A stretch of 64,000 nucleotides of DNA from positions 186,001 through 250,000 of the forward strand of contig NZ_JACJHY010000002.1 of assembly GCF_014138625.1 (NCBI RefSeq), written 5' to 3'. This DNA is from Aminobacter ciceronei. Lineage in GTDB: Bacteria > Pseudomonadota > Alphaproteobacteria > Rhizobiales > Rhizobiaceae. The position numbers and the translations under genes were made by a program. This document shows, piece after piece, positions 10,049 through 52,318 of the stretch. The stretch's first letter is position 1, and every line of letters begins with the position of its first letter. Below the pieces are notes generated by a model that had not been told where the DNA came from, made no database searches, and worked only from the letters and a program-made list of their open reading frames with translations.

Positions 10049-10065
10049 GTTGCTTTAATCGCAAC
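10049..10065. promoter_or_regulatory. 17-bp dispersed operator, upstream of phage dnaN
   Basis: GTTGC-TTTAATC-GCAAC, a perfect match to the dispersed palindrome of this prophage, in the 49-base gap ahead of dnaN. A further GTTGC half site precedes it at 10040-10044. Confidence 0.7.
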
Positions 10066-10076
10066 ACTACAGGCAG

Positions 10077-10325
10077 TTATAAACCGCTGTCAACATCGTT
10101 AATGCGCACGAGCGTCAGCTTATAGCCAATGGCCTGGGCGGCATTCTCGAAATTTATAAGCGTCGGCGATCTCATGCCTGATCGCCAGTACGAGAGGTTG
10201 TTCGGGTGGATGCCGACGACCTTGCCGATCGTCTCCATTGATCGAGGATCTTGGTCGATGATCTCCATCATGTCGCGGATGATCGCCGATGCCGTGCGTG
10301 GCGGCTTGCGCTGAAACTTCGCCAT
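10077..10325 (-). CDS. Small helix-turn-helix protein
   Basis: Encodes 82 residues from ATG 10325, which forms a TAATG overlap with the upstream gene. The segment SMETIGKVVGIHPNNLSYWR reads as a Cro/C1-type recognition motif. It probably binds DNA, perhaps the operator 12 bases beyond its stop codon, and could be a secondary regulator of the clamp operon. No catalytic features. Confidence 0.65.
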   Translation of the reverse strand: MAKFQRKPPRTASAIIRDMMEIIDQDPRSMETIGKVVGIHPNNLSYWRSGMRSPTLINFENAAQAIGYKLTLVRINDVDSGL

Positions 10326-10702
10326 TACGGGCGCCCCCGCGTCTCTGCTAGAAGGGCGGGGAGGGAAGCAGGGTCGGTTGAGGGGGCGAGAGCCGGCCCA
10401 ATCCCCGAGCAAACACAACCACCTTCGGCGGTCAAATCCAGACGGCAGCCGATAGGGCCACATTCCAGATCGTAGCCCATGTCGTGCGGACAATTGGTCA
10501 GCGAGACATACACAGCCGCAATCCGTGCCTCTGCTGCTGCAAGAGCCTGTTGGAGGCGCGAAAGCTCGGATGCGGCTTCCTCAGCAGTCTGGAATGTCCG
10601 GTCGTCAAAGCCGCACGAGCAACTGTAGGTACGCCCCTCGCAGCCCCTGGCATGGTCATCGTTGGCGTAGATATCGCGTAGCCGCTCCACAAGCTCACTC
10701 AT
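10325..10702 (-). CDS. Cys-rich phage hypothetical protein
   Basis: Encodes 125 residues. A cluster of cysteines (CEGRTYSCSCGF, then NCPHDMGYDLECGPIGC) suggests metal binding, with a coiled helix between residues 40 and 65. It overlaps both neighbours by 1-4 bases. No family recognised. Confidence 0.5.
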   Translation of the reverse strand: MSELVERLRDIYANDDHARGCEGRTYSCSCGFDDRTFQTAEEAASELSRLQQALAAAEARIAAVYVSLTNCPHDMGYDLECGPIGCRLDLTAEGGCVCSGIGPALAPSTDPASLPALLAETRGRP

Positions 10703-11268
10703 GGCTGCGTTCCCCCTTGCGCGCTGGCACTAGGGGCGATCGCGGCGGGCCAATCGACAAGAGGCGTGTCATAGCCAAGCATCAATGGGTGCTTCGGATC
10801 GCCAGACGATGTGAAACCGAAGACCTTGATTGGCTTGCCGCTGGCGAACAACAGCTCGCGTAGATCATCAAGATGATGCCGCAGGCGCTCCGGTATCTTG
10901 TCGCGGCTTCCCCAGCAGGGGACTAGGATATCAGCCTCGGCTATTATCTCGCGAAGATAACGGGCGTTCTCAGGGCCGACCGGGTCGTCAACCTCGGCAA
11001 GCCGTCTGACATCCTTTGCGCGGTATCCGAACGGATTGGCGGCGATGTATCGACACCCACCGTTCCGAAGAGTGAAGCCTCGCCACTTCTTCGTTGTCTG
11101 GTCTTCCTCGACGGGGCCAGCAGTCGAGCCGTTGACGCCGAAGAAGGCGAACACCAGCCCACGTTCCTGGACCTCCCGATCCAGTCGGTAGCGGTAGTCT
11201 GTGCAGTCTGAGATGACCGCTGAGCTATGCAGAGCAAGCAGACTTTCGATCATGAGCTGGTTCGCCAT
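10699..11268 (-). CDS. DUF1643 family protein
   Basis: Encodes 189 residues from ATG 11268, two bases after the upstream stop; an extension to 11322 would lie in the neighbouring gene. The family features are clear: GVNGSTAGPVEEDQT in place of the usual NPSTAD motif, RYIAANPFGYRAKDVRRL, DPVGPENARYL, and the C-terminal PKHPLMLGYDTPL. DUF1643 proteins are frequent in phages and are of unknown function, possibly nucleotide or nucleic-acid related. The N-terminal motif is slightly divergent (VNGSTA rather than LNPSTA). Confidence 0.85.
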   Translation of the reverse strand: MANQLMIESLLALHSSAVISDCTDYRYRLDREVQERGLVFAFFGVNGSTAGPVEEDQTTKKWRGFTLRNGGCRYIAANPFGYRAKDVRRLAEVDDPVGPENARYLREIIAEADILVPCWGSRDKIPERLRHHLDDLRELLFASGKPIKVFGFTSSGDPKHPLMLGYDTPLVDWPAAIAPSASAQGGTQP

Positions 11269-11269
11269 G

Positions 11270-12415
11270 CTACTTGCCCTCCACAGCCGGGGAGCGGAGG
11301 GAAGCGACAGCCTTGCGGGCACGGCGGATATGGCCGAATGTCATCGCCAATGGCTTGCCATCGCCGTCCCAGCCGACTGTTTCATCATCGGGATCATCAA
11401 GTGTGGATGGGCCCAAGCACTGGTCGGCTACCAATTCGACTAGTTCGTGCAGCTCCTCCACCACCCCCACAGGCGCTGAGACTGGCGTAGGAGAAATCTT
11501 GCCCTCGCCGTTGCAATCGGGGCATTCGGCGGTGGCATGCTCGTCATCGTCGCCGTGCAAGTAGGTTTCCCAATCGGTGACGATCTCACCGTTACCCTGA
11601 CACGTCGCACAGGTCTCGTCGGAGACTGGCGTAGGAGAAGGATGGAGCGCAGAGCGGATGGACCGTTCGTGGTTCCTGTTTGCGGCTCGGATAGCGGCCT
11701 CGTCGTCGGCGTAAAAGCCGAAGTCGTGCATCGCTGCTGGCACCCACATCAGGAAACTTCCGGTCGCGATATGGTAGCTACCGCCGATGCTCTTTGCGGT
11801 TCGGTTCTCGTTCCACTCCAGCGCCTTGATCCCCACCGGCTCTACGGCAGGTGCTGGGGAGGGGGATGATGCGCGAACTTTGTTCATCCGCGCGTCCTCA
11901 GTCCGAGCGCGAACCACCCAGTATTTTGCCGGGTTGGTCATGTCCTTGCGGATGGCCTCTGCGTCCTGCCACGAGGTGTAGAAGGCATGGACCGCAGGGA
12001 AGATGTTTTTGCCGGGCTCCCAGCGGTGCTCTTGCCCTTCCCTTGGTGGGCCCCAGTCATGCAGATAGCAGAGCGCCCACAATTCATCGTTGACCGGCAC
12101 CGCCTCTTTCTGGCTGACTGGAGCTACCCGAGAGACGAAAGCGGCTTCGAGGGCGGCGCGCATCCATTTGCGAGTGATCGTGTTCCGGCAATAGTCAGCC
12201 GCGTCGAGGGCGTGGTCTACCTGCTCCTCCGTCACTCCTGCTGAAGTGGTGGAGGCCCGACGGTTCCAATCGAACCGGCTGTTGTAGTGGTTGGGGCCGG
12301 TGGCCTCGCATGTGCGGCAGCGGTATCCGACAATCTTGTCATCGCCTTCGGACACCAGGTCTTTGCCACCGCAGAACGGGCAGGGCTCCAGTCCCGTCTT
12401 GTCGAGCGCACTCAT
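11270..12415 (-). CDS. Multi-zinc-ribbon phage protein with Lar-like N-terminus
   Basis: Encodes 381 residues. The N-terminus (LEPCPFCGGKDL with a second CRTC pair) matches the Lar restriction-alleviation zinc ribbon, the middle (about residues 90-170) contains an aromatic-rich region, and residues 265-310 hold two CxxCxGxG-type motifs (CATCQGNGEI and CPDCNGEGKI) like the DnaJ zinc finger. Lar proteins protect DNA from type I restriction, but the single domain alone does not prove this role. The combination looks like a mosaic of short phage segments. It joins the next gene through TGATG. Confidence 0.6.
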   Translation of the reverse strand: MSALDKTGLEPCPFCGGKDLVSEGDDKIVGYRCRTCEATGPNHYNSRFDWNRRASTTSAGVTEEQVDHALDAADYCRNTITRKWMRAALEAAFVSRVAPVSQKEAVPVNDELWALCYLHDWGPPREGQEHRWEPGKNIFPAVHAFYTSWQDAEAIRKDMTNPAKYWVVRARTEDARMNKVRASSPSPAPAVEPVGIKALEWNENRTAKSIGGSYHIATGSFLMWVPAAMHDFGFYADDEAAIRAANRNHERSIRSALHPSPTPVSDETCATCQGNGEIVTDWETYLHGDDDEHATAECPDCNGEGKISPTPVSAPVGVVEELHELVELVADQCLGPSTLDDPDDETVGWDGDGKPLAMTFGHIRRARKAVASLRSPAVEGK

Positions 12416-12609
12416 CAGCGGTCCTCCCGAAGGTCGCGGAGATAGTCAGGATCGGGCTCGGGCTGGCTTTCCTCCCAAGGGCAAACACCGCCGCTCTCTT
12501 CCTCAATCTCGCAACTGCGGCGTGAATAGGCGCCACAGAACGGGCAGAGCGTGTCGCTGTCTTCGGGCGAAGCCAATTTCCATGCGTCGTAACCGGGGAT
12601 CGTGGTCAT
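12415..12609 (-). CDS. Small zinc-ribbon protein
   Basis: Encodes 64 residues with CPFCGAYSRRSC, resembling half of a zinc ribbon, and an acidic C-terminus. It overlaps the following gene by one base (TGATG) and the preceding gene by four. Function unknown. Confidence 0.5.
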   Translation of the reverse strand: MTTIPGYDAWKLASPEDSDTLCPFCGAYSRRSCEIEEESGGVCPWEESQPEPDPDYLRDLREDR

Positions 12610-12791
12610 GGGCGGTTCTCCTCAACTTCGGCGAGGACTGCACGCGCTTCCTGAACGCGCATAGCCAGCACCTCCCAATTAGTGTTTCCGATGATGGCTT
12701 TGATCTCGGGGCCGAACATGCCCAAACCGGCAACCTCATTCACAAGCTTGCGCAGGGCCGCTTCCAGTCCCGTCTTGTCGAGTTCATGCAT
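12606..12791 (-). CDS. Phage hypothetical protein
   Basis: Encodes 61 residues, mainly helical. Its first residues (ELDKTGLE) resemble those of the Lar-like protein downstream (ALDKTGLE), suggesting a shared leader segment copied between genes. No family recognised. Confidence 0.5.
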   Translation of the reverse strand: MHELDKTGLEAALRKLVNEVAGLGMFGPEIKAIIGNTNWEVLAMRVQEARAVLAEVEENRP

Positions 12792-13212: not shown

Positions 13213-13214
13213 AG

Positions 13215-13786: not shown

Positions 13787-13788
13787 CT

Positions 13789-13884: not shown

Positions 13885-14093
13885 TACGCAGCCTCCTTAA
13901 CGGGTGATGTGATTTTCTCAACACGATAGCCAAGCGCAGCCGCGAGCTTGTCGAGTTTCGCCTCGGCCGTAGCGACGTGGTGCGCGACCGTGAGCGGATC
14001 CGCATGTCCGTTAAGCGCATATGCCATGAGCAGCGACTTGCTGATCTCGTCGGCGTACAGGTGCGCGCGATAGGCGTCCATTCTGTTCATCAC
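13884..14093 (-). CDS. Phage hypothetical protein
   Basis: Encodes 69 residues, helical, with an Ala-rich centre and a C-terminal KITSPVKEAA. It is coupled by TAATG to the membrane peptide and overlaps the upstream gene by four bases. Function unknown. Confidence 0.5.
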   Translation of the reverse strand: MMNRMDAYRAHLYADEISKSLLMAYALNGHADPLTVAHHVATAEAKLDKLAAALGYRVEKITSPVKEAA

Positions 14094-14308
14094 AGCATGT
14101 CCTCATCGATAATTTCGGGATCGATTTCGAGCTCGGCCGGGGTCAGTCCGCGCTGCAAGTCTGCAAGGAGATGCTTGCCGACCACGTAGTATTCGCCGTC
14201 GAACAGGACCGTCGCGCGCATGTCGCCGCCAACGTGGGCGACAGCGCAGATCATGCGTCCGGTGCCCGGCTGCAGTGCGTTTTCGGTGACGGTTACGTGG
14301 GCGTTCAT
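14090..14308 (-). CDS. Phage hypothetical protein
   Basis: Encodes 72 residues, beta-rich (RATVLFDGEYYVVGKHLL) with an acidic tail. It is the first gene after the operator cluster at 14332-14391, so it probably begins a transcript that runs left through to 10077 or beyond. Confidence 0.55.
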   Translation of the reverse strand: MNAHVTVTENALQPGTGRMICAVAHVGGDMRATVLFDGEYYVVGKHLLADLQRGLTPAELEIDPEIIDEDML

Positions 14309-14331
14309 CGCTGATTTCCCGGTGCTCTTAT

Positions 14332-14391
14332 GTTGCGACTATCGCAACGCATGTGGCGCATGTCAACACTAATCGCAACACATATCGCAAC
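14332..14391. promoter_or_regulatory. Dispersed operator cluster, leftward promoter region
   Basis: GTTGC-GACTATC-GCAAC (14332-14348) is a perfect operator. Two more ATCGCAAC half sites lie at 14372-14379 and 14384-14391, 12 bases apart in the same orientation. The segment is the only non-coding gap between the exonuclease gene and 14308, so it likely controls the leftward genes. Confidence 0.65.
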
Positions 14392-14394
14392 ATT

Positions 14395-15081
14395 TTAGGT
14401 TCGCTTCTTCAGCCAGTACCGCGCCGAGAATTTTGTATCCTCGTCCATCTCGGACTTGTCGCGTATCCATTCGAGGTAATCGATGGGCGCCGCCTCGAAC
14501 GTCGTGCCGCGGTGCTTCCCGAAATTCATCACTTTCAGGAGTGCCGGGTACTTCGATATCAGGATCATCTCGTCGGGCGTCTTCTCGGCGAGCAGCCGCA
14601 CGAATAGGTGCGCTGTCACGTAGGCGTCGGGCAAAGCGCGGTGTGGCGGCGTAGCCTCGGCGGGGTCTACGGCCAGGTCGAGCCAGTACCTCAGCCCCTG
14701 GTTCGAATGCGTCGGCGCATCGGGCCATACGACGCGCGCCACCTTGTAAGTATCGATCCATGGTCGACCGTCGCCGGCATGGAAATGCATCTCGAATTTC
14801 GCGTTATGCGCCACGAGAACGTCAGTCTCGGCGCATCCGTCATAGAATGCATCCCAGAGCTCGCGCGCATCGGGCGCATTCACGACCTCGTCCTCGGTGA
14901 TGTGGTGGACGGCCTTTGTCACGGCCGGGATAGGACCGCGTGGTCGAGCGAATGATCGCCAGCCGTTGCCTATCTCGCGTGTAACCAGGTCGACATCGAT
15001 CCGGCCGAACTCGATGATCTCGGCGCCGGCATCTTCGGGCGTTCCGGTCGTCTCATAATCTATCACCCTCGCGATTTTCAT
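14395..15081 (-). CDS. DEDDh 3'-5' exonuclease (DnaQ/ExoX-like)
   Basis: Encodes 228 residues. The first motif D8-x-E10 (VIDYETTG) and the last motif H147-x4-D152 (HRALPDA) are intact. The middle motif reads HNAKFE, with Glu97 where the family usually has Asp, which may be tolerated. A C-terminal segment MNFGKHRGTTFE matches the short domain found after the exonuclease core in ExoX-like proteins. It would remove 3' nucleotides from DNA or RNA, as expected in phage replication or recombination. It overlaps the upstream gene by four bases. Confidence 0.85.
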   Translation of the reverse strand: MKIARVIDYETTGTPEDAGAEIIEFGRIDVDLVTREIGNGWRSFARPRGPIPAVTKAVHHITEDEVVNAPDARELWDAFYDGCAETDVLVAHNAKFEMHFHAGDGRPWIDTYKVARVVWPDAPTHSNQGLRYWLDLAVDPAEATPPHRALPDAYVTAHLFVRLLAEKTPDEMILISKYPALLKVMNFGKHRGTTFEAAPIDYLEWIRDKSEMDEDTKFSARYWLKKRT

Positions 15082-15566
15082 CTCGCCTGCTCCTTTTTCT
15101 TCCTACGCGGCAATACCCCAGCCTCGGCGCGGCGCTGCCTGACGCCTTTCGCCAGCCCTGCCGCGCGTATCTCGTCGAGAACGATCGCCTCGTCGTTCAA
15201 ATAATACTCGGTCGACCAGCACAGGCGGTCACCTCGCTTGCCGGCCCATGGCCTGCGCCAGATCACAGCGCGGAACATGCCTATCGGCGTCTCAATGCCC
15301 GCAACGGCGTCAGCGGTCACGCCTGACAACCCTGATCCATGGCCGTGCTTGTCGAACCAGGCGCGCTGCGCCAAGCGCTGCAATTGCTCCAGATAGTTCA
15401 CCTGAACCGGCTGGAGTACCCGAACCGATTTCTCCGGCATGACGGAGCGTAGCGCCCTGAACACGTCGACCAGGACGTCAGCCTCATTCCCATCGGTCGC
15501 GCGGCTGACGGCCCGAATGCAATCCTCGACCGCGTTTTCGTAGGCTATTCGCTCCGCTATCAGCAT
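15078..15566 (-). CDS. Phage hypothetical protein
   Basis: Encodes 162 residues from ATG 15566, preceded by GAGG at 9 bases; the TTG at 15581 adds five residues. It ends in a basic tail (RRAEAGVLPRRKKKEQ), which suggests nucleic-acid contact. It is the first gene of the leftward block, next to an operator. Function unknown. Confidence 0.55.
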   Translation of the reverse strand: MLIAERIAYENAVEDCIRAVSRATDGNEADVLVDVFRALRSVMPEKSVRVLQPVQVNYLEQLQRLAQRAWFDKHGHGSGLSGVTADAVAGIETPIGMFRAVIWRRPWAGKRGDRLCWSTEYYLNDEAIVLDEIRAAGLAKGVRQRRAEAGVLPRRKKKEQAR

Positions 15567-15582
15567 GTGCGATTTCCTCAAT

Positions 15583-15603
15583 ATGTTGCGTATATGGCAA
15601 CAT
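15583..15603. promoter_or_regulatory. Dispersed operator at the leftward/rightward divide
   Basis: GTTGC-GTATATG-GCAAC (15585-15601) lies inside a slightly longer palindrome, ATGTTGC...GCAACAT. It is immediately upstream of the leftward block. Confidence 0.65.
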
Positions 15604-16002
15604 ACACCAGTTCGAAACTGGAAATCAAATCTCTTTCTTTGCCGCAGTATAAATCAACGATCATGGTGTGAACGATTTCCGTAGCCTGTTCACAGCGTAC
15701 TGAACAATCGACCATTTCAAGCCAAATCAAAACCTCATTGCAGACCAAGAAATCCAATATTCCCCTTATAAATCAATATCTTATCTATTCGAAATAGAAT
15801 GGAAGATAGGTTTTAATAGAGACATCAAAAACTCTATGGTTTGAGGAGTACAGCAGTATTAACAGCGCTAACCCTCATCAAATACGAGTTTTTGACCTCT
15901 TTTTGAAAACACCAAATACAAACCTCGCCCGTCCTGCAATTCACCCGCTCAACCATCCGCGCGCTATCTGATGCGGAAATTACAACGCAGCGAGACAGGC
16001 GA
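15604..16002. other. AT-rich divergent control region without a clear gene
   Basis: About 400 bases of clearly lower GC than the flanks separate the leftward early block from the rightward terminase genes. It holds the hairpin TCTATT-CGA-AATAGA (15784-15798) inside a longer imperfect palindrome, and several AT tracts that could be late promoters, a packaging site or a replication origin. A 40-codon leftward frame at 15834-15956 exists but has no support. I cannot assign a function. Confidence 0.45.
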
Positions 16003-16539
16003 ATGGCCGGAAATATCAGGGAGAAAAAACTCACTCCAAAGCAGGAGCGATTTGTCGCGGAATACCTGATCGATTTGAACGCGACACAGGCGGCTATCAG
16101 GGCGGGATATTCGAAGAAGACGGCCGAAAAGATCGGTAGCGAAAACCTCAGCAAACCAGAGGTACGCGCACACATCGACGCGGCCACAGGCAAGCGCCTT
16201 CAGAAAGCCGAGATAACGGGCGAGCGCGTCCTGAATGCAATCGCTGAAATCGCATTCGGCGACATCCGCAAAATGTTCAACGCAGACGGCGCGCTTACCC
16301 GGCCGCAAGACTGGGACGACGAGACGGCTGCGGCTGTTGCCGGCCTGGAGGTGGTCACGGTCAATAAGGGTGAGGGCGTTGTCGAGCACGTTGCCAAGAT
16401 CAAGCGAGCCGATAGGCTGCGCGCTCTCGATATGCTCGCGCGTCACCACTCGCTCTACAACGACAAGTTGGAAGTTAATGTGATTGACAACCTAGCTGAG
16501 CGCGTTGCTCGCGCCAAGAAGCGTGCGACGAATGGCTAA
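16003..16539 (+). CDS. terS: Terminase small subunit
   Basis: Encodes 178 residues. The opening LTPKQERFVAEYLIDLNATQ and AAIRAGYSKKTAEKIGSENL match the Terminase_2 (pfam03592) DNA-binding domain, which recognises the phage packaging site. The C-terminal half, which contacts the large subunit, is more variable. It overlaps the large-subunit gene by eight bases. Confidence 0.92.
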   Translation: MAGNIREKKLTPKQERFVAEYLIDLNATQAAIRAGYSKKTAEKIGSENLSKPEVRAHIDAATGKRLQKAEITGERVLNAIAEIAFGDIRKMFNADGALTRPQDWDDETAAAVAGLEVVTVNKGEGVVEHVAKIKRADRLRALDMLARHHSLYNDKLEVNVIDNLAERVARAKKRATNG

Positions 16540-18013: not shown

Positions 18014-18179
18014 GAGTGCGCCCGCTCTCCCTATCTGCCCGATCGGGCAGCACGCCAACCATCCGGCGACAGTTCGGGAGAGCGTGGCGACTTTGCGCTG
18101 TCAGGATTAACACCACCCGTTCAGCCAATCAACCATCGGCGAGTAAGCATCGCGGGATCGTCACCGTAGGATGCTCCTC

Positions 18180-18392: not shown

Positions 18393-18403
18393 GGTCATCG
18401 TTC

Positions 18404-30087: not shown

Positions 30088-30747
30088 TTACCCTGCCATC
30101 GAATAGAGCAGGGCGCGCACCTGATCTTTCCTCATGTCGCCGCCTAATGTAGGCGCTGCGGCGATATATCCTGCCTTCTGGCGCAACTCCTCCAGTGTCC
30201 GGCACTGATACCGAATGAGTTCGTCCGCCGTCCGATCCTCAGCGTCTTCATCCATGTTGTATTCCGCCGCCGTCTGGATGATATCGACGTGGGTCAGAAA
30301 GCGCTCGTATGCTCTCCGGTGCGCGTCGATCAGAGTTTGGAGTGATCCTTTCGGCGCCTGCGCGCGCTCTCGGTTTGCAAGCTTTTCCTCCATCGCGTTG
30401 AAGGCGGCGATATACTTGAGCTTCCAGTTCAGGGCGCGCTTGCCCGTGAAGCCCATTGTCAGCAGCGTGAACCCGTCGCGGTTCATGTTGTAGATCGCGA
30501 TGTCTCGGGTTCCACCGCTCGGCATTTTCATGGGGCGGGATGATTCACCAAAATTGGATGCACATAAAACATTGTTGGAAATCAACGCCTTGATGTCACG
30601 CATAACATGATAGTGCGACTTGCCGAAAAAGGCAGCAACATCCTCGCTGCTGGCGTAGACGTTGCCGTCGCACACGAACACGACGGGCTGGTCCAGGCCG
30701 CGAACGGTGCGAGCATGGCAGGGGATGAGGGTGGTGATGTCGTTCAT
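30088..30747 (-). CDS. rha: Rha family phage regulatory protein
   Basis: Encodes 219 residues. The N-terminal VVFVCDGNVYASSEDVAAFFGKS and NFGESSRPM, and FTLLTMGFTGKRALNWK, match the phage_pRha (pfam09669) domain of phi80/P22-type Rha. Rha interferes with growth of some phages when the host lacks integration host factor, and the domain often accompanies antirepressors. AAGGA lies 8 bases before ATG 30747. It reads against the surrounding virion genes and is therefore likely expressed separately. A long folded leader lies upstream. Confidence 0.88.
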   Translation of the reverse strand: MNDITTLIPCHARTVRGLDQPVVFVCDGNVYASSEDVAAFFGKSHYHVMRDIKALISNNVLCASNFGESSRPMKMPSGGTRDIAIYNMNRDGFTLLTMGFTGKRALNWKLKYIAAFNAMEEKLANRERAQAPKGSLQTLIDAHRRAYERFLTHVDIIQTAAEYNMDEDAEDRTADELIRYQCRTLEELRQKAGYIAAAPTLGGDMRKDQVRALLYSMAG

Positions 30748-30964: not shown

Positions 30965-30991
30965 GTTGTGATTATCGCAACATGTTGCGAT
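30965..30991. promoter_or_regulatory. Dispersed operator pair upstream of rha
   Basis: GTTGT-GATTATC-GCAAC (30965-30981, one mismatch) overlaps the perfect 18-bp palindrome ATCGCAAC-AT-GTTGCGAT (30974-30991). Its position fits the promoter of the rha leader. Confidence 0.65.
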
Positions 30992-31252: not shown

Positions 31253-31288
31253 TGCTAAAATCTCAACATCCGTGGCATAAATCACAAC
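31252..31288 (+). promoter_or_regulatory. Promoter and operator for the polyvalent protein gene
   Basis: TTGCTA (31252-31257), an 18-base spacer and CATAAA (31276-31281) read as a sigma70 promoter. The variant operator GTGGC-ATAAATC-ACAAC (31272-31288) overlaps the -10 box. The same GTGGCATAAATC occurs before the endolysin at 52302, so both late genes may be co-regulated. Confidence 0.55.
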
Positions 31289-31319: not shown

Positions 31320-34300
31320 TTGGATACTCTCGCGGACTATGATGCATGGAAGTCAAAGCAGCAACAGGCCACCGCTGCGGCGGCGGGGATAGTTCTCGAT
31401 ACGATTAACGTCAAGCCAGACGAAATCGCGGGCGACCTGCAGCTTGCGCAGGAGTACGCAAGGACGACGGGGCGCCCGACGCCGCCGTTGCCTTTGGTGC
31501 AGGAAAACCGCTCGATTTTTCAGCAGCAGATTGAGCGCAAGCGGAATTCGTCGATCCTGTCATCCTCACCCATGCTGGCCGAATGGCTGCGGAAGCCTGA
31601 AAACTCAGCCTTGGCCCGCGACGATCTTGAGGGGTTGTCGCTCTGGGAGATTATCGGCTCCAACATCAAAGAAGCCGGCAAGGCCGTTCCTGGCGGCGCC
31701 GTCTCCAGCCTTGGCACAGCCATGGAGGGGGCGGGGCAAATATTGACCCCACGCGACCCTTCCGATCGGGCGCCGCTGGCGCAGTCGATTGCGGGAGCGG
31801 GGCGGAAGACACCCGAAGAAATCGCAGCTCTACGGGCTGAGATTTTTCAGCAAGGCGTGATCAATCCCCAAGTGGCGCAAAGTGTCCTGTCTGACGTGAT
31901 CGCCGGCGACATGACCATGGAGGAGGCGTTGACGGCGCTGGAGCCGGCCCTTGCCCCGGCGTTGGGCGCGGCGTCGGAGGCCCTGCAATCTGGCGGGGAG
32001 GCCGTCCAGGATTTTGGGGCAGGCATTCTGCCGGCTGCACAGGGGATGGAAGACAGTTTCGGGCGTGACGTTGGCTCTGGCCTCGGCTCCCTGCTGACTA
32101 TCCTTGGCGTTGGTCTTGTCACGGGCGGATCGGGAGCGGCTGTGTTCGGCGGCGCGGCAGGAGCCGGTGAGGCCGCGTCTCGCGCTCGGAGGGGCGGCCA
32201 AGATGAGGATACGCAAACAATCGCGGCTCTCTACGGCATTTTCCCCGGCATGACCGACGCGATCCCGATCGAGCGTCTAATTGCAAACCCGGTCGTAAAG
32301 TCGGGGCTGGCATCTATTCTCCGGTCCATTGGCAAGCAAGTTGCGCTGGAGGGCGGGCAGGAGGCGGTTCAGAATATCCTCCAGAATGCGATCGCCAAGA
32401 ACTTGTATGCTCCAGATCAAGACCCATTCGATGGTGTGATGCGCGCCATACAGACAGGTGGGTTCGTCGGAGGCTTGGTTGAGGCTGGCCGTATCGGCTT
32501 GAATGCGATCATGCCAGGCCGTTACAGGCGGGCGCAACAGGCCGCGGGCCGCGCCGAGGAGGCCGAAGCTAAGATCAAGGAAATTCAGTCGGCGTCGGTC
32601 ACGTCCGTTCTGCGCAACCGCATGCCCGACGCATTCCGCGATTTCGTCGCCCGCGCCACTGCGAATGGCCCGGTCGAGAACGTGTATGTGCCTGCGTCGG
32701 AGTGGGTCGAGTACTTCCAGAGTTCGGGTGTCGATCCGTTCCTGTTGGCCGACGAACTCGACGGCGTGAACTCCGACGATCTTAGGACGGCGCTCGCGAC
32801 CGGTGGCGATCTGCAGATCCCGACTGCGACCTATGCGGCGAAAATGGCCGGGTCGGACCATGATGCCTTCCTGATGGAGAACATGCGGTTCGACCCTGAT
32901 GAGATGACCGCGCGCGAGGCTCGGGAGTTCAATGAACGCGCCGAAGACGCCATGCAGGAGGCATTCGAGGAAGCCGATCGCATGCGCCAGGACGATGAGC
33001 AGTACCGCTCATTCGAGGCAAAGATTTATGACGAGATGGTTTCGCGCCTGCGTGTCTCAGGCCGATCGACCGATGTCGCGACCAGTGAGGCGATGCTGTA
33101 CCCGGCGTTTTACCGCGTCATGGCTGAGCGTTCTGGCCTGACGACCGAGGAATTCATCGCCCGGTATCCGCTGCCACAGGTGCGCGGCGATGTCCCTCAG
33201 GGCATGCAGCTGAAGAATGTCGACGCGTTGACGCGGACGCTGGCCGAGGCACGTGCTCAGAAGGCGGTCGGCGTCGATCGGCGTCAGACGCTGTTGGAGT
33301 TCATCTCGGATTACGGCGGCATCGTTGATCGCGGCGGCGAGTTGAAGGCGCGCGATGCCGAGGTCGTTGACCGTGGCCGCGGCAAGAAGAAGCTCAGGCT
33401 TGCGCGTAAGGGCGTGGCGGCGGGCATGCGCGACATGTTCGGCAATGCGGGGAGGAAATTCGGCCCCGATGACGTGGCGCTCGCCGCGATCGAGGCCGGG
33501 TTCATGGCCGATCATCCTGTCGTGCTTGCGTACAAGGAAGCGCTGACGAACGGCGGACAGGTGCCCGATATCGGAGCTGCGCTGTGGGATGCGATCGACG
33601 CTGAGATCGGCGGCATACAGCAGTTCTCCGTTGATCAGGCTGCGCCTGAGGCCGGAACCGACGCTGATGAGATCGAGCGGTATCTGTCGGCGATCGGGCT
33701 GTCGCTCGATGACAGCGACGACGCGATCCGTGCGGCGGTCGAGGCAGATCAGGCCGAGGAGGTGCGGCGGTACGGGCAGTCCGGTGACGTGCGCGGTGCT
33801 CGCGGCTCGGTGCAGTTTCCGCTTGCCGGCGTAGGTAACGGCGACAGTGTGATCTCGCTGTTCAAGTCGGCTGATCTGTCGACGTTCATCCATGAAAGCG
33901 GTCACTATTTCCTGACCGTGATGCAGGATTTGTCGGCGCGCGGCGAGATTGCCAGTGCTCAGGACTTCGCTGCGATCAAGGAATGGTGGCGTTCGAACGC
34001 GGACGACGTTGTGAAAGACGCAGCGCGCGTCATGCCCGATGTGAAACTGACATCGGAGGACGTGATTGCCGCACTGGAAAACGGTTCGACCGGCGATCTT
34101 ATGAAGGACGCCGCCGTCGATGTCGGCATGCAGGAGCAGTGGGCTCGGGCTTTCGAGGCGTATCTTCTGGAGGGCAAGGCACCTTCGATCGAACTCCGCG
34201 GCGCATTCGAGAAGTTCCGCGCCTGGCTGATTTCGATCTACAAGAATCTGGCCGGCCTGAATATCTCACCGTCCGACGAGCTGCGCGCGGTGTTCGACCG

Positions 34301-41412: not shown

Positions 41413-41661
41413 ATGCTGACCACCGTAATGAAAACCCTAGCTCGCTGGCGGACGTGGCTGTTCAACACCATTGCCGCAATCATCGTTCTTATGCCCGACA
41501 TCGCGACCGCGCTCGTCGGGTATAATTGGGGCGATATCGTTCCTCCGAAATACATGCCGCTGGTGACGCTCGGCATCATCGTCGCGAATATCTGGATGCG
41601 GCCCCGGCCTGCCGTCCTTGCAGGCGATGTTGAGGCTCGTCCGCCGCGAGATGAACCGTGA
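41413..41661 (+). CDS. Putative holin
   Basis: Encodes 82 residues, taking ATG 41413 with GAGG seven bases before; ATG 41401 would add four residues. Two hydrophobic segments (FNTIAAIIVLMPDIATALVG and YMPLVTLGIIVANIWM) with a charged tail fit a short phage holin that triggers membrane permeabilisation. It overlaps the spanin gene by four bases. Confidence 0.7.
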   Translation: MLTTVMKTLARWRTWLFNTIAAIIVLMPDIATALVGYNWGDIVPPKYMPLVTLGIIVANIWMRPRPAVLAGDVEARPPRDEP

Positions 41662-41939
41662 CGGCCTGGCTGTGGCGGCTTGGGGCTGCGGTCGCCGTGA
41701 TCGCTGCGGTGTTCGCTGCGGGGTACACCAAGGGCAAGAGCGACGGCCGCGTTGCTGCCCTGAAGGATACCGTCGCGGCCTATCAGAAGCGGGGTGATGT
41801 CGATGCGACTGTTCGCAACATGGATGCTGTTGATTTGTGCGTCGATCTTGGCGGCCTGCCAGACGAGTGCACAGGGCTGCGCGGGCTGGCATCGGATACC
41901 AGTGAAGCCGGCGACGGCGGTATATCTGGCCGGCAGTGA
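41658..41939 (+). CDS. i-spanin (Rz-like)
   Basis: Encodes 93 residues. An N-terminal membrane anchor (LWRLGAAVAVIAAVFAAG) is followed by a helical periplasmic part (GRVAALKDTVAAYQK). It overlaps an out-of-frame lipoprotein gene, the classic nested Rz/Rz1 layout. It disrupts the outer membrane together with the o-spanin. Confidence 0.72.
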   Translation: MTAWLWRLGAAVAVIAAVFAAGYTKGKSDGRVAALKDTVAAYQKRGDVDATVRNMDAVDLCVDLGGLPDECTGLRGLASDTSEAGDGGISGRQ

Positions 41940-42006
41940 CGCCGAGGCGGGGCGGGGCATCGCGGGACATAACAGGTTCGGCGCCGCGCAAGGCTGCTGG
42001 AAATAG
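41797..42006 (+). CDS. o-spanin lipoprotein (Rz1-like), nested in the i-spanin gene
   Basis: Encodes 69 residues in the frame +1 relative to the i-spanin, from ATG 41797 (41803 possible). The signal peptide ends in the lipobox SILAAC, so cysteine is lipidated after cleavage. The tail HNRFGAAQGCWK matches rhizobial o-spanins. It runs 67 bases beyond the i-spanin stop. Confidence 0.78.
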   Translation: MSMRLFATWMLLICASILAACQTSAQGCAGWHRIPVKPATAVYLAGSDAEAGRGIAGHNRFGAAQGCWK

Positions 42007-42008
42007 AA

Positions 42009-42030
42009 ACGGCGGCACGATGGCCGCCGT
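42009..42030. terminator. Bidirectional hairpin at the end of the lysis genes
   Basis: ACGGCGGC pairs with GCCGCCGT around a 6-base loop. A T-rich GTTTCTATTT follows in the leftward direction only, so it would best stop transcription from the 42-45 kb leftward operon. Confidence 0.6.
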
Positions 42031-42033
42031 CTG

Positions 42034-42050
42034 AATGCGATAATCGCAAC
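42034..42050. promoter_or_regulatory. Dispersed operator at a convergent 3' junction
   Basis: AATGC-GATAATC-GCAAC has two mismatches to the consensus but carries a full ATCGCAAC half site. It sits between the ends of two convergent operons, where a promoter operator is not expected, which suggests a roadblock-type (stoperator) role. Confidence 0.45.
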
Positions 42051-44290: not shown

Positions 44291-44511
44291 GCGGCTTCGG
44301 CCGTTGTCTGGCGCTCAACCATATTCCTGAGCGCAGCGGCGAATGCCTGATCGAAAGTTTCAGCACTGCTGCTGGTGCATTCGCCTGATCCAGTCTCGCC
44401 CCAGTGGATGTAAACGGTGAGCGGGAGGGATTTATGTCCGGTGATCAGCATGACAGAGATTGCTCTGAGCCCGTGCCTCGCACAGAGACGCTTGAGTTTC
44501 CTCTCCATCAC
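44287..44511 (-). CDS. Phage hypothetical protein
   Basis: Encodes 74 residues, starting with a basic helix and continuing with a beta region (VMLITGHKSLPLTVYIHWG). It lies between the exonuclease gene and recT with four-base overlaps. No function assigned. Confidence 0.5.
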   Translation of the reverse strand: MMERKLKRLCARHGLRAISVMLITGHKSLPLTVYIHWGETGSGECTSSSAETFDQAFAAALRNMVERQTTAEAA

Positions 44512-45374
44512 GCGGCCTCCTCAATCGGCGCGTCGATCTCCTGATAGCTCCAGCGCTTGAACTGGAGCTCGGTGATCTCGCCGGAGTAGCCCGGCCACTC
44601 ATCGGCCTTGGCGCACTCGGCGTAGCGCTGCAGCGCCTTGCGGCAGATCGCGCGGCCCTCGTCGACGATCGACGGCGGCAGTTCGTAGCGGGCGGTCACG
44701 AACGGGTGCTTGTCTTCCCATGTGAGGAACACAAAGCCGTTGACGGCCTGGCCGTTGGCAAGGTGCCCATCCGTGTACCAGGGCTCCTGCGCGTGATAGC
44801 CGTACTCGATCACGCTGCGGGCGAAGGCGTCGGGGTGCGCGCTGCGGGTCTTCTTCACATCGACCATGACGCCGAGATCGGAGCGATAGAGGTCGGGACG
44901 TGACCGGCAGAGGACGCCGGTCTCGGGGTCGATCCAGTATGACGACGTTTCCACCTGCGAATGAGGGCTGACGATCAGCGCACTAATCCATGCGTCGGCG
45001 TGCACAGTGTCGCGGATCACGAGCGCGTCGTCGTAGTCTCCCTGTGTCAGCAGGAGGCGCTTGGTGTTCTTCGCCTCTGCGACTGCGTCTTTCCAGTTGT
45101 TGCCGCGCCGGTCTTCGGGGCCGCGCATGGCCCGCGCTTCGAACGTGTTCGGCTCAAGGATGGCCCAGTGGAACGCCGTGCCCTTGTCCTTGGCGGCCGT
45201 CGCCTGGGTGCTTTCTTCCCTCGGCGCCGGGAATTTGAAATGCCGCGGCGTCTGCTTGTAGATCGTCCAAAGCCCAGACTTCGAAATGCCGGGGCCGGAA
45301 TGATAGGCGTCGTTTTCGATGTCGGCGTAGACGCCGGGTCCGATAGTCGCCAGGTCGGCGGGAACTTCATCCAT
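44508..45374 (-). CDS. RecE-like PD-(D/E)xK exonuclease
   Basis: Encodes 288 residues. Features of the RecE/DUF3799 nuclease fold are the His69 in GTAFHWAILEP, Asp161 in CRSRPDLYR, and Asp172 with Lys174 in VMVDVKKT. It would resect one DNA strand to load RecT. The operon order exonuclease then annealing protein is that of the Rac RecE/RecT system. The conserved VDVKK motif deviates from the usual VDWKTT type. Confidence 0.88.
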   Translation of the reverse strand: MDEVPADLATIGPGVYADIENDAYHSGPGISKSGLWTIYKQTPRHFKFPAPREESTQATAAKDKGTAFHWAILEPNTFEARAMRGPEDRRGNNWKDAVAEAKNTKRLLLTQGDYDDALVIRDTVHADAWISALIVSPHSQVETSSYWIDPETGVLCRSRPDLYRSDLGVMVDVKKTRSAHPDAFARSVIEYGYHAQEPWYTDGHLANGQAVNGFVFLTWEDKHPFVTARYELPPSIVDEGRAICRKALQRYAECAKADEWPGYSGEITELQFKRWSYQEIDAPIEEAA

Positions 45375-45473: not shown

Positions 45474-45518
45474 GTTGCGATAAACACAACACTGCCGATA
45501 CGATGCGAAAATGTCAAC
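45474..45518. promoter_or_regulatory. Operators upstream of the recombination operon
   Basis: GTTGC-GATAAAC-ACAAC (45474-45490, one mismatch) and a weaker GATGC-N7-TCAAC (45502-45518) lie ahead of the RecE-like gene. This fits repression of the leftward operon by the phage repressor. The rest of the gap between 45375 and 45649 holds only the repressor terminator. Confidence 0.6.
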
Positions 45519-45649: not shown

Positions 45650-46273
45650 CTACGGGAGGACGGCCAAAACAGGGGTCGCAGTCTGCAACACAACTTCGCG
45701 GGTTTCGTTCGTGAAGGTCACGACGCGCGCCTCGCCGGTTTTTCTGGCGCGCTCAATCTTGGCGATCATTTGCGTCCCCTCGTGGAGACGGCAGACCGAT
45801 AGAGCCCCGATCGCTGCCGGCTCTACGCTTTCGGTGTAGCCAAAGAGAACGACAGCATCATCCCACGGAGCGAGAGGGCCGCTCGACGCGCGAACTTGCG
45901 CCGCTATTACAGATGAGTTGCCGCCGACGTGTATCGCCGCCTTGGCGCGGTCGATCACCCCCTGGGGTAAGGGTTTGGGCTGCATAAGTCTTTCGATTAC
46001 GCCGTCCTCTCCAATAGTCGCCGCTAGTAGAATTCGGGTCGGAATTCCCTCGGTATCAAGTGCCACTCCTGCGTGGCTCAATACTTCGCTGACCGGGGCT
46101 CCAAGAAACCGCGCGATCAAAGTTGCCTCTTCCATTTTCATTCTCCGTTTGCCTGCCAGCATGCGGGAGACAGCGGAAGGGTCTATTTCCAAGTGCCGCG
46201 CCAATCCCCTTACGGATCGGTTGTTTTTCTCCAGCTGCTGGAAGAACCAATCCTTGTCGATAGGCGCCTGCAT
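45650..46273 (-). CDS. cI: Phage repressor with LexA-like C-terminal domain
   Basis: Encodes 207 residues. The first 60 residues form a helix-turn-helix (VRGLARHLEIDPSAVSRMLAGK). The C-terminus, beginning about residue 110, follows the S24/LexA fold: VRASSGPLAPWDDAVVLF carries the candidate nucleophile Ser130/131 and Lys172 in QMIAKIE is the candidate base; Ala68-Gly69 is a possible cleavage bond. The motif is somewhat divergent, so auto-cleavage is plausible but not certain. It is oriented opposite to the Cro-like gene with operators between, like a lambda-type switch. Confidence 0.82.
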   Translation of the reverse strand: MQAPIDKDWFFQQLEKNNRSVRGLARHLEIDPSAVSRMLAGKRRMKMEEATLIARFLGAPVSEVLSHAGVALDTEGIPTRILLAATIGEDGVIERLMQPKPLPQGVIDRAKAAIHVGGNSSVIAAQVRASSGPLAPWDDAVVLFGYTESVEPAAIGALSVCRLHEGTQMIAKIERARKTGEARVVTFTNETREVVLQTATPVLAVLP

Positions 46274-46334: not shown

Positions 46335-46438
46335 GTTGCGGAAGTTGCAACAAATCGCAATACAATCATTCGATGTAGTTAACGCAACGCTGTGCTTGAC
46401 GATGTGAAATCCGCAACGTATGTTGCGGTAACTACATC
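46335..46438. promoter_or_regulatory. Divergent repressor/cro-like control region with four operators
   Basis: A perfect GTTGC-GGAAGTT-GCAAC (46335-46351) and three variants of the form GATGT-N7-GCAAC or its inverse (46372-46388, 46401-46417, 46422-46438) fill the gap. The rightward promoter reads TTGACG (46396-46401), 17 bases, TATGTT (46419-46424); one operator lies between its boxes and one overlaps the -10. The outer pair (46372-46388 / 46422-46438) forms a near-perfect inverted repeat. Confidence 0.75.
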
Positions 46439-46456
46439 AATTAAGGATAGCGACCG

Positions 46457-46675
46457 GTGCATCAGCAGATGACCCCCTGGCAGAAGGTCCATTCGAAGTT
46501 CGGCATTAACTCTGCCGGCCTTGCGAAGTTGCTGGGCCGCCACCGCTCCAAGATCAGCCGCGCGCTGAAGGACGAGAAGGGCCTTATCAGTGGTCGCGAC
46601 CAGGAATTGATCCTGAACACGGCGCGAGAGAACGGCGTCGAGATTACCCCGAACGATCTAATGCCGGGGTATTGA
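46457..46675 (+). CDS. Cro-like helix-turn-helix protein
   Basis: Encodes 72 residues from GTG 46457, with AAGGA nine bases before. The segment NSAGLAKLLGRHRSKISRAL is a helix-turn-helix. As the first gene to the right of the divergent operators, it is probably the lytic regulator that competes with the repressor. Confidence 0.7.
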   Translation: MHQQMTPWQKVHSKFGINSAGLAKLLGRHRSKISRALKDEKGLISGRDQELILNTARENGVEITPNDLMPGY

Positions 46676-46677
46676 GC

Positions 46678-48712: not shown

Positions 48713-48777
48713 AATGGTTCTGGAAGATGATAATCGACGCGGGCAATGGCCTGCTGCGTCTGGCGGGGGCGAAGTAG
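48709..48777 (+). CDS. 22-residue peptide, possible microprotein
   Basis: ATG 48709 overlaps the preceding stop (ATGA), and the TAG ends at 48777, directly before the SSB start. The sequence MKWFWKMIIDAGNGLLRLAG is amphipathic and could be membrane-active. It may only serve translational coupling. Confidence 0.35.
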   Translation: MKWFWKMIIDAGNGLLRLAGAK

Positions 48778-49688: not shown

Positions 49689-49710
49689 TCCTCCCAGATC
49701 GTGTTACTAG

Positions 49711-49736
49711 CCGGCCCTTCGGGGCCGGTTTTTTCT
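49711..49736 (+). terminator. Rho-independent terminator
   Basis: CCGGCCC-TTCG-GGGCCGG type stem followed by TTTTTTC. It closes the 46.4-49.7 kb operon just ahead of the primase operator. Confidence 0.9.
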
Positions 49737-49756
49737 TGCAATGACTGTTGCGATGT

Positions 49757-49773
49757 GTTGTGGTTAACGCAAC
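49757..49773. promoter_or_regulatory. Dispersed operator before the primase gene
   Basis: GTTGT-GGTTAAC-GCAAC (one mismatch) lies between the terminator and ATG 49793, with a GTTGCGAT half site at 49747. Confidence 0.6.
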
Positions 49774-49792
49774 ACCGATTTGGGAAATCATA

Positions 49793-52150
49793 ATGTCAGA
49801 AATCGACCGCCTTCGCCGGGAAGTTTCCTTATCGGACACTGCCCGCGGCTATGGCGTGGATCTGCAGGAAAACGGCAACGAGTGGGAGGCTTGCTGCCCG
49901 TTCCATTCTGAGAATACGCCGTCATTTACGATCTTCACCGGCAATGATCACACCGAGCGGTACCACTGCTTCGGGTGCGGCTCTGCCGGCGATGTCGTCG
50001 ACTTCGTCAAGAAGATCAAAGGCGTTAGCACCCGTGAGGCGATCGGCATCCTGGGCGGCGGTACCGCTGGCCCGAACATCCTGCCGCAGAAGATCGAGGT
50101 CGTCGACATCTATGCGCGTATCTTGCCGCTGCCAGCGCCGCGCGAGATCGAGGTCGGCAAGCGGATCAAGGTCTATAATCCGAAGCGCGCCGGCCACGAG
50201 TGGGAGTGGGGTAATTTTACGCCGTCCATGGTGTTCCCATATTTCACCGCGGACGGAGCAACGGTTGGCTACGTGCTGCGCCGCGAGTTCGACGGCGGTC
50301 GCAAGGAAACGCCTATGGTCTGCTGGGTGCGCCTGCCGACCGGCGAGGAGTGTTGGTCGCGTTTCCCGTTCCCTCGGCCTCGGCCTCTGTATGTAGGCGG
50401 CGGCAAGTCGTCGCTCCGCGACGGGCAGGTCGTTGTCGTCGAGGGCGAGAAGTGTGCCGACGCAATGGTCGCCGGGTCGTACCGGCAAGCAGTGTCGTGG
50501 GCTGGCGGCACGTTCGGCATCTGGCATACCGACTGGTCGCAGCTTGCGGGTCGCTCGGTGATTATCTGGCCCGACGCCGACGAGCCTGGGGTGAAGACGG
50601 CCAACGAGGTCGCGGCACTGCTTGCGGGCCTCGGCTGCTCGGTGAAAGTGCTCGACGTTTCGGGCGACCTGCCGAAGGGGTTTGATGTCGCCGACGCTGT
50701 GCGCGACAGATGGACCAAGGAGAATATCGACGCGTTCATGAAAGAGCGCGTTCGGGTCTGGACGCCAACGGCCGAGCGCGCCCCCGAGCCTGAGCCTGAG
50801 ATTGAGCGGGAGCCGGCCCCTGCTGGCGCTAGCCGCCCGATCGTCCAAGCCAAGACGACGCAGCAGGAACAGCCTCAGTCGGCGACAGTGACGAGCATTC
50901 AGACGCGGCGCACGGTTCAAGCTGACGATGCCTGGCAGGCCGAGCTCGTGTTCAACGAGGAAGGCAGGCCAAAGCCGGGCGTTGCGAAAAACTGGATGCT
51001 GTTTCTGGAGAACCATCCGAAGACGCGCGGCGTGTTCGGCTTCGATGCGTTCAAGATGAATATCATGCTGATGCGCTGCCCACCTTGGGAGGACGCCGGA
51101 TCGCACTGGGAGCCGAGAACGCTGCGCGATACCGACTATGCCAACGCCGCGATGTGGCTTGAGGGTATGCACCTGACGCCCAAGGCGACGACGATCCAGC
51201 CAGTGATCGCCGCGGTTGCCGAGAAATACCAGTTCGACCGGCTGCGCGAATATCTCGATGGCCTCACATGGGACGGCCAGCCGAGGATCAGGCAATGGTT
51301 GGCTGATTATGTCGGCTGCGCTGCCACGAATTACAACTCCGTTGTCGGGATGCGCTTCCTGATCTCGGCCGTCGCGCGCGGCCTTGAGCCTGGGTGCAAG
51401 GTCGATACGATGCCCATTCTTGAAGGCCCGCAAGGCGCGATGAAATCGACGGTCCTGCGCGACCTATTCGGGAAATCGTTCTTCACAGACGAGCTGTCCG
51501 ACATCGGCTCCAAAGACGCCATGATGGAAATGGCGGGCGTGTGGGGGATCGAGGTTGCAGAAATGCACCGCTTCAACGCAGCCGAGACGAACAACGTGAA
51601 GAAATTCCTCAGCCGACAGGCGGACAGATACCGTCCGCCATATGGCCGATCGGTGATCGAGGTCCATCGCCGCGTCGTCCTCGCCGGCACCATCAACCCG
51701 GAAGGCAATCCCTATCTGAGAGATAGCACGGGCGCGCGCCGGTTCTGGCCGGTGACGGTAGGGACCATCGACCTCGATGCAGTCAGCCGCGACAGAGATC
51801 AGCTATGGGCTGAGGCTGTCGCCGAGTTCCGCAAGAAAACTCCGCACTGGATCCAGCCCGACGAGGTTGCCGACGTTGAGGCAGAGCAGGCGAAGCGAAC
51901 CGACGTTGATGTATGGACGGATGCGATTGCCGATCTCGCGAAGACGCGCACCGCCGTCTACCAGAACGAAATCCTGAAAGACCTGGGCATTCCGCTGAAG
52001 GATGCAAACGACCGTCACGCTGCTCGCATCGGCCGCGTCATGAAGAAACTGGGGTGGGAGATGGTGCGCGATCGCACTGCTGGCGAGGACCGGGTGAAGT
52101 TCGTTCAACCGTCTTTGATTGTGCCAGAACAAGAAACCCTCGACTGGTGA
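49793..52150 (+). CDS. Phage primase-helicase with CHC2 and VirE-type ATPase domains
   Basis: Encodes 785 residues from ATG 49793. An N-terminal CHC2 zinc finger uses Cys35, His38, Cys59 and Cys62. A TOPRIM-type part follows, with VVVEGEKCAD near residue 212 and PDADEPG near 259. The C-terminal part is a VirE/VapE-like ATPase with a Walker A GPQGAMKST (545-553), which is a variant of GxxGxGKS. It likely makes primers and unwinds the phage template. An upstream frame to 49748 contains the operator and is rejected. Confidence 0.9.
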   Translation: MSEIDRLRREVSLSDTARGYGVDLQENGNEWEACCPFHSENTPSFTIFTGNDHTERYHCFGCGSAGDVVDFVKKIKGVSTREAIGILGGGTAGPNILPQKIEVVDIYARILPLPAPREIEVGKRIKVYNPKRAGHEWEWGNFTPSMVFPYFTADGATVGYVLRREFDGGRKETPMVCWVRLPTGEECWSRFPFPRPRPLYVGGGKSSLRDGQVVVVEGEKCADAMVAGSYRQAVSWAGGTFGIWHTDWSQLAGRSVIIWPDADEPGVKTANEVAALLAGLGCSVKVLDVSGDLPKGFDVADAVRDRWTKENIDAFMKERVRVWTPTAERAPEPEPEIEREPAPAGASRPIVQAKTTQQEQPQSATVTSIQTRRTVQADDAWQAELVFNEEGRPKPGVAKNWMLFLENHPKTRGVFGFDAFKMNIMLMRCPPWEDAGSHWEPRTLRDTDYANAAMWLEGMHLTPKATTIQPVIAAVAEKYQFDRLREYLDGLTWDGQPRIRQWLADYVGCAATNYNSVVGMRFLISAVARGLEPGCKVDTMPILEGPQGAMKSTVLRDLFGKSFFTDELSDIGSKDAMMEMAGVWGIEVAEMHRFNAAETNNVKKFLSRQADRYRPPYGRSVIEVHRRVVLAGTINPEGNPYLRDSTGARRFWPVTVGTIDLDAVSRDRDQLWAEAVAEFRKKTPHWIQPDEVADVEAEQAKRTDVDVWTDAIADLAKTRTAVYQNEILKDLGIPLKDANDRHAARIGRVMKKLGWEMVRDRTAGEDRVKFVQPSLIVPEQETLDW

Positions 52151-52159
52151 GGTCGAGGG
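52137..52159 (+). terminator. Stem overlapping the end of the primase gene
   Basis: CCCTCGAC pairs with GTCGAGGG with the stop codon in the loop. No T tract follows. The next 120 bases contain no gene and no other clear signal before the endolysin promoter. Confidence 0.4.
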
Positions 52160-52282
52160 TTCCGGCCTTGCCTGATTTCACCGCCTGAGCCATGAGCCTC
52201 CGGGGAGCGGTGCCTTTCCTCAAGGGTGATCAGCGCGGATTAGTCCTGGCCTCTCGGACTTCGGAGTACCCCCTTCGGCGTG

Positions 52283-52318
52283 TTGTGATAGTTGCATGAG
52301 TGTGGCATAAATCGCAAC
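52283..52318 (+). promoter_or_regulatory. Endolysin promoter with overlapping operator
   Basis: TTGTGA (52283-52288), 17 bases and CATAAA (52306-52311) read as a promoter. The operator GTGGC-ATAAATC-GCAAC (52302-52318, one mismatch) covers the -10 box, as at the polyvalent gene. Confidence 0.6.

Follow-up and report, generated by a model that had tools for sequence, protein, structure and literature searches.

The 64,000-nt stretch of the Aminobacter ciceronei genome analyzed here (contig NZ_JACJHY010000002.1, positions 186,001 to 250,000; called the window below) harbors a prophage of about 46.7 kb over which copies of a palindrome with the core GTTGC-N7-GCAAC are dispersed. It is highly probable that these sites serve as operators through which a 207-residue helix-turn-helix (HTH) repressor controls a single phage regulon; binding by this protein, its dimerization, repression, roadblock and induction by an antirepressor are predicted from sequence. 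The sites are enriched in the prophage, conserved in related phages, placed alike next to orthologous genes, and found together with the repressor and its HTH family. The two regulators flanking the central control region are:

45650-46273 (-): candidate repressor of 207 residues with an N-terminal HTH_3/HTH_31 domain and no S24 peptidase match.
46457-46675 (+): small Cro-like HTH protein of 72 residues with orthologues in relatives.

The exact pattern occurs four times in the window, against a mean of 0.085 and a maximum of 2 in 200 dinucleotide shuffles, and nine sites have at most one mismatch (shuffle mean 2.8, maximum 6). The original prediction, made from the sequence alone, had listed four perfect copies, at 10049, 14332, 15585 and 46335, all of which we find at these coordinates, and four with one mismatch, at 30965, 45474, 49757 and 52302, which are likewise present in the prophage; a fifth, at 62592, lies outside it. 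When two mismatches are allowed, the pattern is not enriched in the window (46 matches versus a mean of 38.8, a count reached by 14 of 100 shuffles). The two-mismatch sites that had also been named do exist, but they are therefore not defensible by the bare pattern, which we rejected as evidence for them; they are supported by a position matrix and by recurrence in relatives outside its training set.

This matrix (symmetrised, 17 positions, trained on 13 window sites) scores 17 sites at 16 bits or more in positions 8900-54400 (45.5 kb), against a shuffled mean of 0.09 (100 shuffles), a count that is partly circular in that 13 of the 17 form the training set, from which the relatives are absent. 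The flanks (1-8899 and 54400-64000) contain no site at this threshold. Four sites are additional to those first listed: 15970 (19.9 bits), 54241 (17.1 bits), 13906 (16.9 bits) and 20384 (17.1 bits). The last lies inside an unlisted gene and is probably a coding coincidence, and 54241 and 13906 are uncertain as operators. Over the whole 6.77-Mb genome there are 16 exact sites, four of them inside the prophage, and GTTGYGAWNWTCRCAAC is matched with no more than two mismatches at 28 places, 11 of them in the prophage, compared with 6 for a reversed-pattern control. A matrix-free search for repeated exact 5-bp arms ranked TGTTG-N9-CAACA and GTTGC-N7-GCAAC at the top in the window and recovered the motif family in the related phage contigs G396 and G793. 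The position flanking the matrix is conserved as well, with T in 69% and C in 27% of the sites of the relatives, the window not counted (0.89 bits), which extends the operator to a palindrome of about 19 bp, YGTTGYGAWWWTCRCAACR. The operators predicted in the window are:

10049-10065: exact core, 22 nt upstream of the beta-clamp gene 8927-10027 (-), with TTGACA 28 nt ahead of the operator.
13906-13922: uncertain operator from the matrix scan, 16.9 bits.
14332-14348: exact core, 24 nt upstream of frame 14090-14308 (-), with TTGACA 18 nt ahead of the operator.
15585-15601: exact core, at the start of frame 15078-15581 (-), separating the early-left from the late units.
15970-15986: 19.9 bits, close upstream of the small terminase gene at 16003 (+).
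30965-30981: 26.8 bits, upstream of the Rha gene, with TTGACA a little ahead.
31272-31288: 19.1 bits, ahead of the 2106-residue gene at 31320 (+), in the window only (1 of 15 records).
42034-42050: 21.5 bits, stoperator candidate directly past the stop of the exo-recT operon, without a -35-like box.
45474-45490: 26.0 bits, upstream of the exonuclease gene 44508-45374 (-), with TTGACA 27 nt ahead.
46335-46351: exact core, on the repressor side of the rep-cro control region.
46372-46388: 20.6 bits, in the rep-cro control region.
46401-46417: 19.6 bits, filling the gap from TTGACG to TATGTT in the cro promoter.
46422-46438: 19.8 bits, overlapping the -10 of the cro promoter and spaced 21 bp from the operator at 46401.
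49757-49773: 24.2 bits, 20 nt upstream of the primase gene at 49793 (+).
52302-52318: 19.9 bits, 22 nt upstream of the endolysin gene at 52341 (+).
54241-54257: uncertain operator, 17.1 bits, abutting an in-frame integrase ATG (54240); none of seven relatives has one there.

Related contigs were gathered by portal and clamp searches. Repressor orthologues with 41-66% identity are encoded in G394, G396, G397 and contig 44 of G395, each of which has 6-9 matrix sites of at least 16 bits. With the repressor alone as query, no genome-contig relative was found and the viral contigs gave no record but that of the prophage itself; a profile built from five repressors returned 19 loci from the viral collection, namely the own record, three known contigs, one distant contig and 14 new ones. 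The new contigs, with repressors of 48-69% identity (one of them, in G794, has its frame broken in the contig and was omitted from the repressor alignment), carry 2-12 sites of at least 16 bits, compared with means of 0-0.2 in 30 shuffles each. Every one of the 18 phage contigs besides the window that encode a repressor orthologue at about 40% identity or above has the operator; in two records where the repressor is distant (26% and 34%), no site reaches 16 bits, and G398 and G401, whose only matches among the window proteins are to the clamp, have none of at least 14 bits. A frequency above that of shuffled sequence, on which the original prediction had hinged, is thus borne out by the matrix scan, in the window as in its relatives. 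At E ≤ 1e-20, the same profile matched the own genome and just one more of the 385 searched from the class, so that members of the group are uncommon in this sample of genomes. Relatives of the primase (35-43% identity) occur in 24 of 394 genomes of the family, the own one included.

Placement relative to genes was assessed automatically in 20 records, including the window and with two contigs of G395 kept separate, and counts only genes whose start could be extrapolated. An operator stands at cro in 18 of 18 records, at exo in 18 of 18 and at the primase gene in 15 of 18, as well as at a small zinc-finger gene (9 of 9), on the terminase side (11 of 15) and at Rha (1 of 1). No operator was found at o48341 (0/18), ssb (0/16), vrr (0/17), large terminase (0/14), portal (0/14), capsid, o22410, tailB and three internal virion genes (0/15 each), fibre (0/16) or the integrase gene (0/7). 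Other operon-internal genes have one rarely: helicase (1/17), recT (1/18), tailA (1/15) and the 2106-residue gene (1/15, the window). Exceptions are o46672 (12/13), because this gene sits directly behind cro, and a protease-like gene (3/10), where a conserved coding stretch is probably responsible. Sites scoring at least 18 bits number 116, and only one of them falls within orthologous gene bodies, which make up 55% of the sequence; the corresponding binomial p (3e-39) exaggerates the effect, with related records and the window's training sites counted in, and sites outside these bodies may still fall in unlisted genes, as 20384 does. Placement and co-occurrence with the repressor at 45650-46273 together support the earlier view of one prophage-wide operator set located mostly at promoters.

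The promoter classes were hand-picked from the matrix hits. At exo, TTGAC starts 26-28 nt upstream of the operator on the gene strand in 16 of 17 sites; at cro, it starts 26-27 nt upstream in all 11; and at the early-left sites, it lies within 45 nt upstream in 17 of 22, mostly at the same offset. From such fixed offsets, occlusion of RNA polymerase would follow naturally. In 10 of 18 records, cro has paired sites 21-22 bp apart, the upstream member lying within the -35/-10 spacer. Of the 16 sites at the primase gene, 13 have TTG at -20 to -22 and only three have it as TTGAC, and the eight endolysin-class sites (those of G396 and G397, where no endolysin orthologue was found, were assigned by position) have no TTGAC; occlusion is less certain at both. 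The leaders behind the exo and early-left operators contain [GA]CAAC half-sites at 1.06 and 0.82 per 45 nt, respectively, versus a background of 0.105, and no GTTG[CT] form was found in these leaders of the phage set.

The site at 42034 belongs to a different, minority class. The original prediction placed it at a convergent 3' junction, and the opposing frame 41658-41939 (+) indeed matches Rz-like spanins; frame 41437-42018 (-), considered as the gene behind this operator, is for that reason probably no gene and was dropped. Adjoining the operator is:

42007-42032 (-): hairpin at the convergent junction, from a single-sequence fold.

In nine of nine phages with the small zinc-finger gene (phrog_20494), an operator of 21.5-27.6 bits starts 81-84 nt before its ATG. 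In eight of the nine, the 3' end of an orthologue from the exo-recT operon is no more than about 150 nt away from this operator, and a strong hairpin follows the operator in eight of nine (single-sequence folds, without shuffled controls); for G786, such a fold gave no comparable hairpin. The window has no zinc-finger gene that we could find and retains the operator and the hairpin, which face the spanin-like gene. An orthologue of o42055 is present in G394, G797 and G798, without a listed operator behind it. In the hairpins of the nine relatives (for example L129:14990-15089:-), the loop TTTA[AG]AC is kept and the stem varies, which is unusual for a plain terminator. A consensus RNA fold of these leaders gave misaligned stems with a covariation term of -0.1 kcal/mol, and no Rfam family was found in them in the five sources scanned.

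We consider a roadblock or gated terminator somewhat likelier for this class than a promoter with an attenuator, and it is the only class that would resemble a stoperator. The competing explanation, for which there is a good but lesser chance, is that operators act at promoters only and that the 42034 class is an unusual promoter with a leader hairpin ahead of the zinc-finger gene. The constant operator-to-ATG spacing agrees with it, as does a permissive rule that accepts TTGACA/G with 5 of 6 positions matched anywhere between -42 and -6 and finds a box in 5 of 10 sites. At the offsets of the other classes (-20 to -22 or -26 to -28), however, TTG is found in none of the 10 sites, window included, on either strand. 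The combined -35/-10 score of 7.1 is slightly over that of random DNA (6.3) but under those of exo, cro and early-left (8.4-8.7), and the window has lost the zinc-finger gene yet keeps operator and hairpin.

Under the regulon that we propose, the repressor, probably as a dimer, would bind the 19-bp palindrome at the heads of most early units (cro-helicase-ssb, exo-recT, early-left/clamp and primase) and at the Rha and endolysin genes, and would there exclude RNA polymerase. At cro, this would involve in many phages two sites 21-22 bp apart, one in the -35/-10 gap and one on the -10; at exo and early-left, a single site would overlap the edge of the -10 and the start. The Cro-like protein probably acts on the same sites. 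The 42034 class, between the last stop codon and the hairpin, would probably block or gate transcription out of the operon. Pfam searches of the repressor gave no match to the S24 family at E up to 0.001, only HTH_3/HTH_31, and relief by an antirepressor is therefore possible. The candidate, which may relieve repression and has the operator at 30965 upstream, is:

30088-30747 (-): Rha-type regulator (PF09669), candidate antirepressor.

Several observations weigh against this proposal. Placement is patchy at the endolysin gene (6/13), at the repressor's own start (11/18), at the clamp (2/5) and at dnaQ (1/12), and the late structural operon has little operator signal past the terminase side. 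The exact-arm search did not give the motif clearly in G394 and did not find it in G787. The contigs are related, so that their counts are not independent: the repressors of G795 and G796 are identical and those of G787 and G794 nearly so. The repressor of G789 has 65% identity, yet in this contig just two sites reach 16 bits, and both of them lie at rep/cro; no exo orthologue was found there. In G394, the recognition helix of the repressor is altered while the operator is unchanged. Orthologues of the Cro-like protein accompany the motif and retain the R[HD]RSK HTH, and this conservation, with the helix change in G394, leaves room for a second binder. These features of G394 and G789 and of the Cro-like orthologues would also suit a scheme in which the dispersed sites serve chiefly the 72-residue Cro-like protein, for turning down early genes in the lytic cycle, and the repressor needs only the rep-cro cluster. 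We regard this scheme as improbable, given that the HTH common to motif-bearing genes of the host family is that of the repressor.

Among solved structures, the repressor profile matches best to HigA (E 9e-4) and to a protein named VapI (E 1e-3), in each case over the HTH alone. Matches to the repressor, mostly of the HTH region alone, were found in 43 of 394 genomes of the host family, the own one included, and at 18 of the 29 best non-self HTH loci a site scoring 12 bits or more, a looser cut than the 14-18 bits used for the phages, lies within 200 nt upstream. A scan of these loci gave 27 hits in 93 kb versus 1.75 in 20 shuffles; 22 of the hits fall in the 200-nt upstream stretch and five elsewhere, one of the latter scoring 20.6 bits. 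Directly behind the HTH gene, 26 of the 29 loci (L006-L034) have a relative of PIN-domain proteins, and Pfam named PIN in both PIN-locus proteins tested. The operator lies within 200 nt upstream in 17 of the 26; the argument is weakened by the nine PIN loci that lack a site and by the lower scores. Judged by their sequences, these loci look like XRE antitoxin/PIN toxin operons in which the autoregulator would have its HTH and operator in common with the phage repressor.

It is very unlikely that the phage sites are bound mainly by a host regulator such as an XRE antitoxin: antitoxin operons do bear the same operator, but the window's own genome, searched with the repressor sequence, yielded only the phage repressor itself, and the sites are concentrated around rep-cro in the phage and track its repressor across contigs. 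Chance matches in GC-rich DNA, which the lack of enrichment at two mismatches might suggest, can practically be dismissed in view of the shuffle controls, the sites of the relatives and their conservation at orthologous places. More speculatively, the phage repressor and the host XRE antitoxins might be one DNA-binding lineage with one operator, able to form a shared prophage/toxin-antitoxin network, and the promoterless operator-hairpin behind exo-recT might in addition be a repressor-gated terminator controlling the zinc-finger gene; we hold this combination to be rather unlikely.

The candidate attachment sites of the prophage are:

7679-7704: candidate left attachment site, a 26-bp direct repeat with its second copy at 54336-54361.
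54336-54361: candidate right attachment site, a 26-bp direct repeat adjoining the integrase gene 53107-54309 (-).

Its head and tail genes are of podovirus type, and the portal has less than 60% identity to any entry of the named-phage collection, the matches including epsilon15, phiV10 and BPP-1. RecT, an exonuclease (44508-45374, -), a helicase, SSB, a primase/VapE protein (from 49793, +) and an endolysin (from 52341, +) are also encoded. The gene at 8927-10027 (-) encodes a phage-borne DNA polymerase III beta clamp, with relatives of 42-46% identity in other viral contigs. Rfam family RF02968 (DUF3800-IX RNA) matches at 18017-18086 (-) with 45.7 bits (cut-off 36.8), and the start of the G793 contig (L134, positions 2-308) contains 18 copies of CCGGC-N12-GCCGG with an 18-bp period.

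The early region of Streptomyces phage phiC31 has conserved palindromic inverted repeats, bound by its repressor, at many places. As in lambda CI/Cro, the repressor gene and a small HTH gene diverge here, with four operators between 46273 and 46457; unlike in lambda, operators also occur outside the rep-cro region, and no S24 peptidase match was obtained for the repressor. The presence of many near-identical sites over one prophage is that of dispersed-operator immunity, a kind of control already known from P1, L5 and SPbeta. In the portions of the P1 source used here (PMC8546580), C1 represses lytic genes through 22 operators of 17 bp across the genome, and antirepressors are known; one repressor, here a candidate, with many dispersed sites is common to both, but the P1 consensus is asymmetric and the operator here palindromic. 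SPbeta MrpR is described, in the sections of PMC10516654 drawn upon, as a master repressor acting on a repeated element, SPBRE, at promoters (ten ChAP-seq peaks, 15-bp motif). The repeated element at promoters of one prophage is shared, whereas MrpR has a tyrosine-recombinase fold and the repressor here is HTH_3/HTH_31 by Pfam.

The original prediction had likened the system to mycobacteriophage L5. The excerpts of PMC6550527 consulted give 20-30 asymmetric L5 sites oriented with transcription, most not associated with promoters, and an elongation block shown for L5/Bxb1, which we suspect here for the 42034 class only. The likeness holds for many sites genome-wide, some at promoters and some not, and may hold for one candidate stoperator class; it fails for asymmetry, orientation and mostly non-promoter location, as the sites here are palindromic and most of the conserved classes stand at a fixed distance from a -35-like box.

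The nearest named relatives of the repressor (25-32% identity) are from the Bcep22-like podoviruses BcepMigl, BcepIL02 and JC1. No dispersed motif was found in the Bcep22-like record G800, and no site in the region scanned around the BcepMigl repressor; the corresponding regions of Itty13 and SopranoGao have one site each (17-18 bits), off the rep-cro gap. A tRNA gene (L149, 8389-8461) lies near the repressor gene of phage G788, and the BcepMigl repressor is likewise near a serine tRNA. The main text of the JC1 paper contains neither "operator" nor "inverted repeat" (PMC9144972), that of a paper on another rhizobial temperate phage family lacks "operator" (PMC8631192), and no report of this operator was found among open-licence full texts. 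What appears to be new is the lineage, the design in which palindromic operators are locked to promoters and accompanied by a promoterless operator-hairpin, and the sharing of this operator with antitoxin operons.

The analysis yields an operator map for a group of temperate podoviruses without a close named relative in the phage collection searched, and the position of the operator with respect to genes and promoter boxes is kept across repressors of 40-69% identity. One repressor may occlude promoters at some sites and block elongation at others, which would make the two modes comparable within one phage. The match to antitoxin operons raises the question of the origin of the phage repressor and of cross-talk between toxin-antitoxin systems and prophages. 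If a common lineage and operator hold true, an antitoxin could contribute to the repression of phages of this group on their entry, and a toxin-antitoxin operon could conversely be silenced by the phage repressor.

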